Positions 17,262-63,970 of a DNA stretch of 64,000 bases are shown here, piece after piece; position 1 is the stretch's first letter; the number at the start of each line of letters is the position of its first letter. A program made the translations under genes and the position numbers. Where the stretch lies: NCBI GenBank assembly GCA_013178305.1, contig JABLXB010000003.1:62001-126000 (forward strand), in the 5' to 3' direction. A model generated the notes under the pieces. It worked only from the letters and a program-made list of their open reading frames with translations. It had not been told where the DNA came from and did not search any database. This DNA comes from Bacillota bacterium (GTDB taxonomy: Bacteria; Bacillota; Sulfobacillia; JABLXB01).

Positions 17262-17903
17262 GACACGACCTCCCGGTCTATCTGCTGTCTCAGGACGCGG
17301 CAAAGCGGCCGTCTGTTCCACCGGCGGGTGCGATCGGCGGTTCGACGCATGCCGTCCGGCATCCTCCGCCGTGGCACGGGGCAAGGAGAACCCCTGCAAG
17401 AGGTAGAATCCTGGATGGTGGGTTATGAAGGCAGGCTCGCGGCCTGCCGGTCGACTGGGATCCGGTCGACTTCGACTCGCTGCCGCGCCGCCGTGTCGCC
17501 GCGCCTGAGCCGATCGACTGGGACCCCGTGCCACGTCGCCATGGCGACGGAATATTGCTCATTATCGCCATCTGTTGCCGTACCGCACGAGTCCCGACCG
17601 GACTCATGCGTGGAGCGCACGCGTTGGGCCATGACTCGTGCTTGTGGCGTACGCGCCCGGCGAGACTGGGTAGAGTCCGGTAGAGCGGAGCAGCTGTGGT
17701 GAGATTTGGGGCGAAGGTGGGCAGAGATGGCAGGTAGCCACCGAACTCGGCCGGATTTCGGCAGACGCCGGGGGACCCGGCGGACCCTGGCGGGACATAA
17801 CGCCTGTGGAGACGGGAGTTCAGGCTGTGAGCCGGTTCCGTCGATGAATCAGGAACCTCTGGGATAACTCCTGTGGGAGACTTTTCCATAGATAGGAGAG
17901 CAG
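17262..17903. other. 640-base gene-free region, rich in inverted repeats
   Basis: I see no convincing gene here. It contains two copies of TCGACTGGGAYCC about 57 bases apart; a 16-bp perfect palindrome CGTCGCCATGGCGACG (17534-17549); a palindrome cluster (17576-17653); an outer inverted repeat GCACGAGTC/GACTCGTGC (about 17585-17593 and 17633-17641) that competes with an inner GAGTCC/GGACTC hairpin; and CGCCGGG-GGA-CCCGGCG (17766-17782). The last 140 bases could be a structured leader of the M20 gene. No T-box, cobalamin, SAM or glycine riboswitch consensus was recognised. Confidence 0.5.
17576..17653. repeat. Cluster of three imperfect palindromes, about 30-bp spacing
   Basis: Units centred near 17581 (TGCCGTACCGCA), 17615 (GCGTG-GAGCG-CACGC) and 17645 (CGTGC-7 nt-GTACG) are 33 and 30 bp apart. 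They share the CGTGC/GCACG core with the five-unit array at 40680-40819, suggesting the same binding factor or element family. Confidence 0.5.
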
Positions 17904-38300: not shown

Positions 38301-40553
38301 ATGAGTTTACACTTTACCCGTAGATTCGCCCGCGCCGCCCGGCGCTTCGCGCTGGGAGTACTGGCAGGTATTCTGATACTGGGCGCTGCCGCGCCCGCCT
38401 GGGCAGCCCCGGGCACGACGCCGGCCCCGAAGTTCTGGTTCGCGTTCGTTTCGGATTCGCACCTCGGTTCACCCCAGGGCAACAAGTGGTCCACCGCCAT
38501 TCCGGATGACATCCGTGCGCACGGCCTCGCGCTGGGCGCGCAGGCTGCCTTCATTGCCCACGGCGGGGACATGACGGAGTTCGGGACGAGGGACGAGTAC
38601 GCCAGGTATCAGGAAACGCTCGCTACAGCAGGAAGACCGGTATACGGTGTCCCCGGTAACCACGAGAGCAAGTGGGGCGACGCCGGCAAGAGCGGTTTCA
38701 GGTACGCCCTCGGAAAGACGTTCACCTCGTTTGATTACCAGGGGATCCACTTCGTGTTCCTGGACACGTCCGTCGACGGCGAGACGTACGGCCACCTGGA
38801 GAAGTACATGCTCGATTGGCTCAAGCAGGACCTCAAGCGCGCCGCGGGAAAGCCCGCGGTCATCTTCAGCCACCATCCGATCGGGTACTCGGTATCGCGC
38901 TTCATCGACAACGACTACGATTTCTTCGAAGCGGTGGCTCCCTTCAACGTCAAGGCGGTGTTTACCGGCCACGGCCATTCGACCCTGAAGTGGACGGTCA
39001 ACGGCATCCCCTGTTTCATGGCCCCCGCCGCCATGGACGGCCAGTACCTGACCGTGCGTGTTGACGGCGGCGACATGACCGTTTTCTCGAAGGCGGTTGG
39101 CGCGGACCCCTCCGTCGTGGCCACGGTCGGCCTTGGAGCGGCCGGTGGGTCGAGGGCGCCCGTCAAGGTCCAGGCGACTATCGCGCAGAAGGAATTGCAG
39201 GTCAAGGCGGAGGTGTCCGGCGTCTCGCCGGTGTCAGCGAAATACCGGGTGGACCTCGGGCCGTGGAAGGACCTCACAGTGGTCTCCGCGGGCCGGCCGC
39301 CGGTCCGCACGGCTATGTATTCCGCTTGCGATCAGGCCTCCTCGTTGCCGGAGGGAGTGCACAACATCTACGTGCGGGTCGAGGCGGAAAACGGAGATGC
39401 CTGGATAGGACGGTGTGAGGTCACCGTCGACAGGACCCCGGCGGGCCGGACCGCGGCCTCCCCGGCCAGGCGGGTGTTGTGGAGGTACAGTGGACGGGGA
39501 GGCGTGCAGGGTTCGCCGGCGGTCCTGCCGGATCTCATCCTCTTCGGTTCGAACGACGGCCTGGTCACAGCGCTCCGCCGTAGCGATGGTCGCCAGAAGT
39601 GGCAGTTCAAGGCGGACGGCGGCGTGCCAGGCCGCATCACCGTTGTGGGGCAACAGGCGTATTTTGGGACTGCCGCGGGGTCCATCTACTGTATCGACCT
39701 GCGGAAGGGCACCCAGAGGTGGAGGTATCCGGTCGACTCGTCCGTTGTGGGCGGAGTTGTGGTTTCGGGCGGGCGTGTACTAGCCGGCACGACGCTGGGC
39801 TGGGTGCACTCCATCAACGCCGCCACGGGCAAACCGGCGTGGAAACAGCGCCTCGGAGGCGCCATCAGGTCTATGCCGTCCGTGGACGCCGGCAGGGTGT
39901 TCGTGGGGGCCTGGGATGGTAAGGTCCACGCGATGTCCGAGGCGACCGGCGAACTGCAGTGGACGACCGTCATTGACGCCTCGCCGTACTATTCGGCCGC
40001 GACCGGCAGGCCGCTGGCTGCAAACGGTGTGCTGTACGTCACATCCCCTGCGAACGCGAAGTCGGGCGGCTACGGCGTCGCTGCCATCGACCAGGCGACG
40101 GGTTCGATCTTCTGGCGGGCTGCGGTCAACGCCGGCTACTCCGAACCTTTCCTCCATGAGGGGGAGCTGGTGGTCACAGACTCGTCCGGCACCGTCCACT
40201 TCCTGGACAGGGACTCAGGTGTGGTCAAGGGCGTAATCAAGGGTGGCGGACCGTGCCTCGATTCATCGGCCGTTCCCGGACCGGCAGGACGGTTCATCAC
40301 CGGGACGACGACCGGGCAGGTGCGTTTCCTGAGCCTGCAGTCGCGGCGCGACCCCGCTGCGGGTTCGCCGGAATCCCCCCAGCCGGCGAACGACGCGGCC
40401 GCCGGCGCGGCTCCTGAACCCGTCGTGCTGCAGGTTGGAGACGGGTTCGTCTTCGCACGCATAGCCGTGTCCGGTCAGACGGCGTACGCGTGTACAATGT
40501 CGGGCGATGTGTACGCGCTCAACCTGACCGGCCTGCTGACTGCGGCGCGGTGA
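38301..40553 (+). CDS. Secreted calcineurin-like phosphoesterase fused to a PQQ-type beta-propeller
   Basis: 750-residue exported fusion protein. The signal peptide spans about residues 1-36 (ALGVLAGILILGAAAPAWA). The metallophosphoesterase domain (about 40-290) shows metal motifs FVSDSHLG, HGGDMTEFG, GVPGNHES, FSHHPIGY and GHGHST. After an Ig-like linker (about 290-390) comes a PQQ/WD-type beta-propeller (about 400-750) with recurring units such as GLVTALRRSDGRQKWQF and GSIYCIDLRKGTQRW. ATG 38301 follows GCGGAGG. It is probably a surface phosphodiesterase/phosphatase whose propeller binds a partner or substrate. Confidence 0.88.
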   Translation: MSLHFTRRFARAARRFALGVLAGILILGAAAPAWAAPGTTPAPKFWFAFVSDSHLGSPQGNKWSTAIPDDIRAHGLALGAQAAFIAHGGDMTEFGTRDEYARYQETLATAGRPVYGVPGNHESKWGDAGKSGFRYALGKTFTSFDYQGIHFVFLDTSVDGETYGHLEKYMLDWLKQDLKRAAGKPAVIFSHHPIGYSVSRFIDNDYDFFEAVAPFNVKAVFTGHGHSTLKWTVNGIPCFMAPAAMDGQYLTVRVDGGDMTVFSKAVGADPSVVATVGLGAAGGSRAPVKVQATIAQKELQVKAEVSGVSPVSAKYRVDLGPWKDLTVVSAGRPPVRTAMYSACDQASSLPEGVHNIYVRVEAENGDAWIGRCEVTVDRTPAGRTAASPARRVLWRYSGRGGVQGSPAVLPDLILFGSNDGLVTALRRSDGRQKWQFKADGGVPGRITVVGQQAYFGTAAGSIYCIDLRKGTQRWRYPVDSSVVGGVVVSGGRVLAGTTLGWVHSINAATGKPAWKQRLGGAIRSMPSVDAGRVFVGAWDGKVHAMSEATGELQWTTVIDASPYYSAATGRPLAANGVLYVTSPANAKSGGYGVAAIDQATGSIFWRAAVNAGYSEPFLHEGELVVTDSSGTVHFLDRDSGVVKGVIKGGGPCLDSSAVPGPAGRFITGTTTGQVRFLSLQSRRDPAAGSPESPQPANDAAAGAAPEPVVLQVGDGFVFARIAVSGQTAYACTMSGDVYALNLTGLLTAAR

Positions 40554-40679
40554 TCCGGTCGCGGCGCTTGCCTGGCCGCCGGCATGAGCAAAGTCAAGGC
40601 GGGCCGGCGCCCGGCGGAATAGTGACGGGATGGTTCTCTACGAGCGGAACACATTGGAACACATTATGGTGCCCGTCGT

Positions 40680-40819
40680 ATCGTGCGTGGGCGCATAAGA
40701 CTCTGCAGGTATGTTGCGTGCACGCACGATTGGGGGCAATTCGTGCTGTGGCGCACGAATGCCGGCGCGAATCGTGCTCTGCAGCACGGTTATTGAGCAG
40801 AACCGTGCGTACACGCAGG
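40680..40819. repeat. Array of five palindromes with 29-31-bp period
   Basis: Centres lie at about 40689.5, 40720.5, 40749.5, 40780.5 and 40811.5 (spacings 31, 29, 31, 31). Units include TGCG-TGGG-CGCA, TGCGTGCACGCA, ATTCGTGC-6 nt-GCACGAAT, AATCGTGCT-CTGC-AGCACGGTT and TGCGT-AC-ACGCA. They share the core CGTGC/GCACG but differ in arms, loops and spacers, so this is not a simple tandem repeat or a CRISPR. Additionally ATCGTGCGTG of unit 1 is the exact reverse complement of CACGCACGAT in unit 2. Confidence 0.75.
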
Positions 40820-40986
40820 ATAAGCGAGACATAATGCCCCTCCCGGGGAGCGGGGGGTGAGGCATGATCCCCGCAGACTGGGTGCGGCAGGGCGGCAAGG
40901 GTGGAGACTGCGAGCGGTCAGACGGCGTGCGGCGAGGCGTTCGCCGACCCGCTTTTCCTCGACAGACTCCAGACGCCGCGAGTTGT

Positions 40987-41016
40987 TTGCCCTTACGGGA
41001 CGCCATGGGGTAAAAT
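40987..41016 (+). promoter_or_regulatory. Sigma-A-type promoter candidate for the phosphoribosyltransferase
   Basis: TTGCCC (40987-40992) and TAAAAT (41011-41016) are separated by 18 bases and lie about 34 bases before the TTG start at 41050. Confidence 0.5.
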
Positions 41017-41049
41017 GAGATCGTTCGGCTTCCCGAGGAGGGTGGCGGT

Positions 41050-41571
41050 TTGCCGGGTGATTTCGAGGGGGACATCGTCCAGCTTTCGTGGGACGACGTG
41101 ATGGAGATATGCAGGGACCTTGCGGTCAAGATCCACGAGGAACTCGACCCCGACATGGTCATAGGCATTGCTCGCGGCGGCCTGATCCCCGCGGCGATAA
41201 TAGCCTCCGTCCTCCGCCTCGACATGTACCCTGTGGCGCTCTCCAGGCGCCGTAAGGGCGCCATCGTTCGCGAGAAGCCTGAGGTGCTCGTCCCGGTTCC
41301 CGACGAGGTTGAAGGGAAGCGGGTACTCGTAGTCGACGAGCGCAGCGAAACCGGCGAGACGCTCAGGCTGGCTGCCAAGGACGCGCACAAGAAGGGCGCG
41401 CGAAAAGTCCGCACGGCGGCCATCCACGCCAGGACCGGTGAATGGAAGCCCAACCACTACGGGTTCGAATCGGCCGGAGTGGTAATCCACCCGTGGGACT
41501 ATGAGGTGTTGGTGTCCGGCAAGTTCATCGTGAACCCCGAGTACGAGGAGGCCCTGTATTCAAGGGGTTAG
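41050..41571 (+). CDS. Phosphoribosyltransferase-domain protein
   Basis: 173-residue type I phosphoribosyltransferase. The PRPP-binding loop reads VLVVDERSETGETL, where most relatives have two acidic residues and D-T-G (for example DDVSDTGxTL), so the loop is slightly unusual. GIARGGLIPAAIIASVL is the conserved PPi-loop region, and HPWDYEVL near the end resembles xanthine/hypoxanthine-type enzymes. TTG 41050 directly follows GGAGGGTGGCGG. Nucleobase specificity is not determinable from the sequence. Confidence 0.85.
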   Translation: MPGDFEGDIVQLSWDDVMEICRDLAVKIHEELDPDMVIGIARGGLIPAAIIASVLRLDMYPVALSRRRKGAIVREKPEVLVPVPDEVEGKRVLVVDERSETGETLRLAAKDAHKKGARKVRTAAIHARTGEWKPNHYGFESAGVVIHPWDYEVLVSGKFIVNPEYEEALYSRG

Positions 41572-59596: not shown

Positions 59597-60022
59597 TCAT
59601 GAAGCGGCCTCCGGAACCACGCTCAGACCGAGCCGGCGGAACACGCGATCGAACGCAAACACGGTCTCCATACTGAGCCCGCGCATTACGGCCACTGTCA
59701 CGCAGTCCGTGAAGCTCAACGGCTGGTCCTCGTACTTTTCGAACAGCATCCACGCCTGCCGCCATACCTCGGGCTCCACCGTCACCACGGTGAAAGAGGG
59801 GCTGTCGAAGATGGCGCGCAGAAACTTGACTGTCGCTGTATGACCGATGGAGGACCTTAGACGCGTGGCTGTCTCGTCAAGCACGTAATCGGTGGTCACG
59901 AAGTGCACAGAGCCGCGCGTGCGGGCGGCATAGGCAGCCGCTTCCTTGTGATACTGATCGCTTCTGTCGGCCAGGGCCACCAGAGCGCTCGTATCCACGA
60001 AGCACCTCTTACGGGTGTTCAA
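59597..60022 (-). CDS. PIN-domain toxin (VapC-like)
   Basis: 141-residue PIN-domain RNase. Acidic catalytic residues appear in CFVDTSALVALAD (Asp10), DYVLDETATRL (Glu) and LSFTDCVTVAVM (Asp), the usual spacing of VapC. TTG 60022 overlaps the stop of the antitoxin gene (TTGA), a classic toxin-antitoxin layout. It lies between the MBL gene and hisS, interrupting the usual synteny, which suggests insertion of a mobile module. Confidence 0.88.
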   Translation of the reverse strand: MNTRKRCFVDTSALVALADRSDQYHKEAAAYAARTRGSVHFVTTDYVLDETATRLRSSIGHTATVKFLRAIFDSPSFTVVTVEPEVWRQAWMLFEKYEDQPLSFTDCVTVAVMRGLSMETVFAFDRVFRRLGLSVVPEAAS

Positions 60023-60336
60023 GCCTTGTCCACCTCCTGGGGTGGCAGGCCGCTCGCCGCTTTACGCGGCGACCCGTAGATGTAGTAGTCGTGTTGTTCC
60101 GCGCTGTCCGGTTCGGAGCCCTCGCCGATCCCGATCACGCTGAAGAACGGGTCATCGGCTTCTGTTGACCGGGGAAGTGAGGACTTATCCACCAGGTAGC
60201 GGCCGACTGCTTCCCTGATCAGGTCGGCCATGCTCCGCCCCTCGCACGCGGCTTCGTGCCTTAGTCGCGAATGCATCTCTGCCGGCAACCTGATGTTGGT
60301 CGTCACGTCTCCCGTCCCGCCAGGTTCCTTATCCAT
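60019..60336 (-). CDS. Ribbon-helix-helix antitoxin (VapB-like)
   Basis: 105-residue antitoxin. The N-terminal ribbon-helix-helix (TTNIRLPAEMHSRLRHEAACEGRSMADLIREAV) binds DNA. The Asp/Glu- and aromatic-rich C-terminus (STEADDPFFSVIGIGEG, DYYIYGS) would wrap the toxin. ATG 60336 follows AGAGGTGG. The palindrome at 60410-60423 is the probable autoregulatory operator. Confidence 0.88.
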   Translation of the reverse strand: MDKEPGGTGDVTTNIRLPAEMHSRLRHEAACEGRSMADLIREAVGRYLVDKSSLPRSTEADDPFFSVIGIGEGSEPDSAEQHDYYIYGSPRKAASGLPPQEVDKA

Positions 60337-60409
60337 TGCTAACCACCTCTCTGGAATTGGGCGTTCCAGCGTCCACGCGACCATCGCGTCACGACGATCA
60401 CAATACCGC

Positions 60410-60423
60410 AATACAATTGTATT
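60410..60423. promoter_or_regulatory. Palindromic operator candidate for the VapBC pair
   Basis: AATACAATTGTATT is a perfect 14-bp AT-rich palindrome about 75 bases upstream of the antitoxin start, standing out in GC-rich DNA. It contains a TACAAT that could be the -10 of the toxin-antitoxin promoter. Confidence 0.55.
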
Positions 60424-63761: not shown

Positions 63762-63970
63762 AGCGTAAACCCTACTGTGTTCGTGAGTAGCCGGCTTGGT
63801 TTGAGCCAACACCAACACATTGGGAGCCTGGACTCCGTCCGCGGAATGCATGCCTCCGCCCGGTTGGGCGCTAGTGGACGCATGAAGCGGGCGGGAGGGC
63901 ACCCACCTGCTATGGAGCAGGTTCAAAAACCGCCGGTGATTTACGACGCGGTGGGGTGTTTTCGTCTTTG
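63762..63970 (+). ncRNA. ssrS: Putative 6S RNA
   Basis: The first and last bases of this roughly 210-nt segment can form a long imperfect closing stem: CGTAAACCCT (from 63764) with GGGTGTTTTCG (about 63954-63964), extended by AG/CT at the ends. The 5' part (TGTTCGTGAG, TTGAGCC, TGCATGCCTCC) recalls 6S RNA sequences from other bacteria. A good promoter precedes it, and the position directly after aspS matches bsrA (6S-1) in Bacillus subtilis. 6S RNA binds sigma-A RNA polymerase and mutes it in slow growth. The exact ends and central bubble need structure prediction. Confidence 0.6.

Follow-up and report, generated by a model that had tools for sequence, protein, structure and literature searches.

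The five regularly spaced palindromes in one intergenic region of the 64-kb stretch of DNA analysed here (the window) belong to a family of extragenic repeat arrays that is restricted to two of the three genera of one Bacillota family. Our preferred reading, to which we assign a rough probability of 45%, is that the array is one copy of this dispersed, lineage-restricted family and that its units would be recognised by a dimeric protein. No description of the same arrays was found in the literature searched. In the following, G000 is the window's own genome, and G001 (the Bacillota MAG SM1-B18.1, JAHDPS01) and G002 represent two related genera of the same family.

The original prediction had placed five dyads at centres 40689.5, 40720.5, 40749.5, 40780.5 and 40811.5, and these coordinates were confirmed. 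It had named CGTGC/GCACG as the part that is kept; what all five units have in common is the slightly shorter core TGC-N6-GCA (Table 1), with steps of 31, 29, 31 and 31 bp from core to core. Unit 3 matches the commonest unit of G001, CGTGCTGTGGCGCACG, at every position of a 16-bp stretch, and unit 2 resembles the G001 unit type that is found before a 29-bp step. The region had been described as otherwise empty, and positions 40554-41049 indeed hold no convincing genes. A short stretch at 40582-40622, ATGAGCAAAGTCAAGGCGGGCCGGCGC, recurs at two other loci (L007, about 1440-1485, and L085, about 2230) and reads as an ORF of 12-19 codons (MSKVKAGRR...) near the arrays at all three; the differences between the window and L085 lie mostly in third codon positions.

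Table 1. Features of the array locus and of the looser cluster (window coordinates).
Feature	Position	Strand	Remarks
Unit 1, 24-bp dyad site	40678..40701		core TGCGTGGGCGCA, 40684-40695
Unit 2	40709..40732		core TGCGTGCACGCA, 40715-40726
Unit 3	40738..40761	+	core TGCTGTGGCGCA, 40744-40755
Unit 4	40769..40792		core TGCTCTGCAGCA, 40775-40786
Unit 5	40800..40823		core TGCGTACACGCA, 40806-40817
Leader and units 1-2	40599..40735	+	partial second copy at G000:C1:808839-808966, 74% identity
432-bp segment including the array	40554..40985		from upstream stop codon to PRT promoter
Conserved PRT promoter	40986..41016	+	TTTGCCC...GGTAAAAT; kept in three genera (alignment)
Upstream gene	38316..40553	+	calcineurin-like phosphoesterase with PQQ/BamB-type beta-propeller
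Downstream gene	41050..41571	+	phosphoribosyltransferase domain protein (PRT)
Looser three-unit cluster	17576..17654	+	within a separate repeat of about 320 bp (17530-17870)

Palindromicity alone says little about the array. When dyads with at least 4/5 paired positions were chained at steps of 28-33 bp, the longest run in the window was 4, and runs of at least 4 were obtained in 29 of 40 shuffles of the whole window; for the 496-bp intergenic region alone, the share of such shuffles was about 1%. A generic chain of palindromes was therefore rejected as a test statistic, as it is not significant window-wide. Judged by motif identity, the run is far beyond chance: the TGC-N6-GCA chain has 5 members in the window, whereas none of 300 dinucleotide shuffles exceeded 2 and 290 of them gave 1. 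A random 400-kb sample of G000 contained one other TGC-N6-GCA chain of at least 3.

The claim that no feature type explains the array did not hold, since the array is a member of a dispersed repeat family. G000 has at least seven array loci including the window (the others at C1:262k, C2:0.3k, C2:416k, C3:171k and C3:223k, and a two-unit array at C1:808k), and in G001 arrays of 1 to 9 units lie at more than 20 intergenic loci. The mean spacing is 30.8 bp (79 steps), and the steps come from a small set, namely 31 bp with single steps of 28/29 and 32 bp. The order of steps recurs between loci: it is 31,31,31,29,31,31,31 at L166, 31,31,31,29,31,31 at L168, 31,31,31,29,31,31,30 at L219 and 31,31,32,29,31,31,31,31 at L078. 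Together with the steps in the window, this indicates that the arrays derive from a single ancestral one.

To determine the distribution of the family, 154 genomes of the class were searched on two strands with a pattern of two full cores and half a third at 31-bp steps. This pattern matched 9/9 times in G000 and 7/9 times in G001 (two strands), and a reversed control pattern gave 0 matches in both. Among the other 152 class genomes no arrays were found, with a single match of the pattern each in G093 and G131. A pattern of three full cores, applied to a sample of 398 genomes of the phylum (G001 not among them), matched only the window's own genome and none of the other 397. G002, from the third genus of the family, showed no arrays in the pattern searches. 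When the genome collection was scanned with the G001 motif, arrays appeared only in SM1-B18.1 and all other matches were isolated and not in arrays; viral contigs gave 1 and 4 motif matches, none from this array family.

A related three-unit cluster had also been reported at 17576-17653. It is a relative of the array, if a looser one, as its units are about 32 bp apart and the later two have an altered core. The repeat of about 320 bp that holds it has a second copy at G000:C1:538231-538552 (L005; 76% identity); it could have come from an insertion sequence or be a structured element. Two copies of its final 75 bp or so were found in G029 (L033, L036), which belongs to another family.

Alignment of 38 units from G000 and 69 from G001 on their cores gave the same dyad-symmetric logo, GATTnnTGC-N6-GCAnnAATC, in which the conservation of TGC and GCA is inflated by the procedure used to find the units. 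Information content at mirror positions was correlated in both genomes (r 0.79, permutation p 0.017 in G000; r 0.81, permutation p 0.008 in G001), and the mirrored conservation extends, in both genera, to positions that were not used for finding units. Base composition matched the complement of the mirror position in G001 (p 0.0014). The clean symmetry test is that of G001, because the orientation of G000 units is uncertain and mixed orientation alone yields symmetric frequencies. At variable positions, mirror pairs did not covary in the units of either genome: for the six outer pairs, Watson-Crick combinations numbered 87 versus 83 expected in G000 (p 0.31) and 226 versus 225 expected in G001 (p 0.46). 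RNAalifold applied to the units returned three pairs and no gain from covariation, and a structured model of the repeat likewise held three base pairs only. A symmetric preference that is not accompanied by covariation argues for a dimeric protein on double-stranded DNA rather than for a selected hairpin. The suggestion that the palindromes form a family of structured elements is thus borne out as to the family, which has arrays in two genera, and not as to a hairpin in each unit.

The array in the window lies between the phosphoesterase gene and the PRT gene (Table 1). Their orthologues are adjacent in G001 and G002, where the stop codon is 19 bp and 3 bp, respectively, from the promoter (consensus across the three genera TTTGCCC...GGTAnAAT); the window has its 432-bp segment at this place, and the array is absent from the orthologous sites of G001 and G002. 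From the sequences, the simplest history would be that the segment arose by one insertion in G000, its exact ends being approximate. Upstream of hisS, G001 has a 9-unit array. The window has the same two flanking genes and the same hisS promoter but no array; the interval instead holds two genes (59597-60411, minus strand; toxin-antitoxin-like), one PIN-domain-like and the other its small companion. Another array, at the end of a sigma-factor gene, is present in G001 and not in G000. Both flanks were checked for these locus pairs only; no array was seen near the orthologues of pycB, rubrerythrin and an aminotransferase in G001, or of alaS and pycB in G002. Occupied and empty orthologous sites indicate that arrays come and go. 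It had been put forward as an argument against the feature that the motif might be missing from orthologous loci; it is indeed missing there, but the related genome has many copies in other places, and so the feature is real, and mobile or dispersed.

Different loci of G001 share two-unit segments, linkers included, with up to 95% identity, and some of them also have their outer flanks in common. Shared linkers and flanks imply that copies were made within the genome, which shows that the similarity among arrays is in part due to recent duplication and not to constraint. The sequence TGTCAACTCATATRAGNATGTAACCGA, which resembles the end of an insertion sequence, was found beside three G001 arrays (L074, about 1905; L083, about 2263; L084, about 1427). 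The array strand agrees with that of the genes at co-directional G001 loci, as far as the gene calls allow, which were made from ORFs and codon composition only. L007 in G000 is an exception to this co-orientation, and several arrays are located between divergent genes. Promoter-like sequences follow the array at several loci, and the neighbouring genes are functionally unrelated (hisS, guaB, alaS, S-layer genes, DegV).

This dispersal would also be expected of a REP/BIME-like palindromic repeat that has no dedicated binding protein, is spread by a transposase, by insertion sequences or by recombination, and is kept by copying alone, an explanation we regard as possible but do not favour. REP/BIME is the repeat class nearest to the arrays: both consist of short palindromic units (20-40 bp) that are extragenic, dispersed in the genome and regularly spaced in small arrays, and the arrays are copied between loci, sometimes beside insertion-sequence ends. 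The copying of linkers and flanks, the presence or absence of arrays at orthologous sites, the extragenic placement with 1-9 units per locus and the sequence resembling an insertion-sequence end beside three arrays all agree with it, and REPs are known targets of insertion sequences (PMC1525189). However, the two REP super-families described so far have GTAG or CGTC as their end tag (PMC3733652), and the unit logos show neither tetranucleotide at one end of the stem, outside the pairing; in the arrays GTAG is confined to the N6, where many G001 units have it. The RAYT transposase that goes with the GTAG type (Y1_Tnp, PF01797) had no match in G000, G001 or G002, with control genomes positive, and compensatory changes that would maintain a stem-loop were not seen in the units. 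The arrays also differ from REP/BIME elements in their period of about 31 bp, in runs of up to 9 units and in their occurrence in two genera only, with roughly 7 to 25 loci in each genome. The mirrored conservation described above speaks against a repeat that lacks a binding protein. Protein binding is known for BIMEs (PMC2817692).

An RNA element, either an array of hairpins or a single long hairpin that is transcribed with the neighbouring gene, appears improbable. The array in the window folds more strongly than shuffled sequences (z -3.6 and -4.8), as do the arrays at L077 (z down to -7) and L168, and the arrays are mostly oriented with their neighbouring genes. On the other hand, the arrays at L167 and L220 fold no better than shuffles (z near 0), and strong folding in some arrays with none in others is as expected for repeated palindromes. 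The lack of covariation in mirror pairs speaks against a separate RNA hairpin for each unit, and promoters downstream of the array as well as arrays between divergent genes do not fit transcription with a neighbouring gene. The arrays matched no curated covariance model of Rfam, array loci yielding only noise from a miRNA model at L168 and a tRNA. The sole Rfam match at gathering level in the window is a 6S RNA at 63766-63961 (plus strand; 96.9 bits).

Less credible still is an ancestral operator that regulates the PRT gene, for example through an octamer of the Lrp kind whose sites are spaced by three turns. The array is upstream of the PRT promoter, and sites of the Ss-LrpB type (Lrp family) are dyads on one face of the DNA, two or three helical turns apart, that are bound cooperatively with wrapping of the DNA (PMC2995911); the spacing of the array units corresponds to this. 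But G001 and G002 keep the promoter at their PRT loci and lack the array, so that conservation of the array as an operator for its neighbour is not supported; the unrelated functions of array neighbours and a central N6 that is not AT-rich also speak against this reading. Lrp-family regulators have few sites at few promoters, whereas the arrays, with as many as 9 units, lie at numerous unrelated loci, are GC-rich in the core and are not conserved at orthologous promoters. For our preferred reading, binding by Lrp-family dimers, cooperative and with wrapping of the DNA, is nevertheless the nearest working model; we claim no membership. Three intergenic palindromes at exact 31-bp steps also occur in viral contigs (L263, 6571-6644; L266, 3015-3088). 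These are single loci with sequences unrelated to the array family and are perhaps, as a guess, repressor operators.

A centromere/partition or replication-related site, with which repeated dyads in an intergenic region would agree, is very improbable, and the single partition-like site that had been considered is contradicted by arrays at over 20 places in G001 and seven or more in G000; parS sites are few and clustered in one part of the chromosome, the arrays lie at many loci on several contigs, and no partition genes were noticed beside the loci examined. A decayed CRISPR array can practically be dismissed despite the regular palindromic repeats, as the repeats vary and are not near-identical with unique spacers of similar length, and about 19 bp, partly repeated between loci, separate the cores within the 31-bp period.

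We return to recognition of the units by a dimeric protein. Cooperative binding of a dimer on the same face, as originally proposed, is still the best functional reading in view of the symmetric logo, the equal conservation of mirror positions, the lack of covariation and the mean spacing, with the protein itself a prediction. A search for the partner protein found none. A MarR/IclR-like HTH gene adjoins an array in both G000 and G001 (L220, 935-1675; G001:C249:3337-3984), on opposite sides. Its product has many paralogues in the class and a C-terminal part without assignment. This gene was rejected as the partner, since the family is present in 36 of the 154 class genomes, nearly all of which have no arrays.

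Each array consists of 1 to 9 units of about 31 bp, joined head to tail, and each unit forms a 24-bp dyad site in double-stranded DNA. In the mechanism we propose, a predicted dimeric DNA-binding protein would occupy the same face of the helix at intervals of three turns, cooperatively, and near promoters the array may then serve for nucleation or wrapping. Duplication or insertion may have spread the copies, in the manner of REP/BIME elements. A bolder version, which we consider unlikely, is that the arrays are mobile operators: an element carrying three-turn-phased sites for a predicted oligomerising protein (a nucleoid, silencing or transposition factor) would insert, within a single Bacillota lineage, between the end of a gene and a promoter.

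Our analysis documents a lineage-specific dispersed repeat that has occupied and empty orthologous sites and whose unit behaves as a protein site and not as a hairpin. If the binding protein exists, pairs of loci with and without an array would constitute a natural experiment on the effect of an inserted binding array on a neighbouring promoter, and would offer a way to learn how such arrays can spread when no RAYT transposase takes part.
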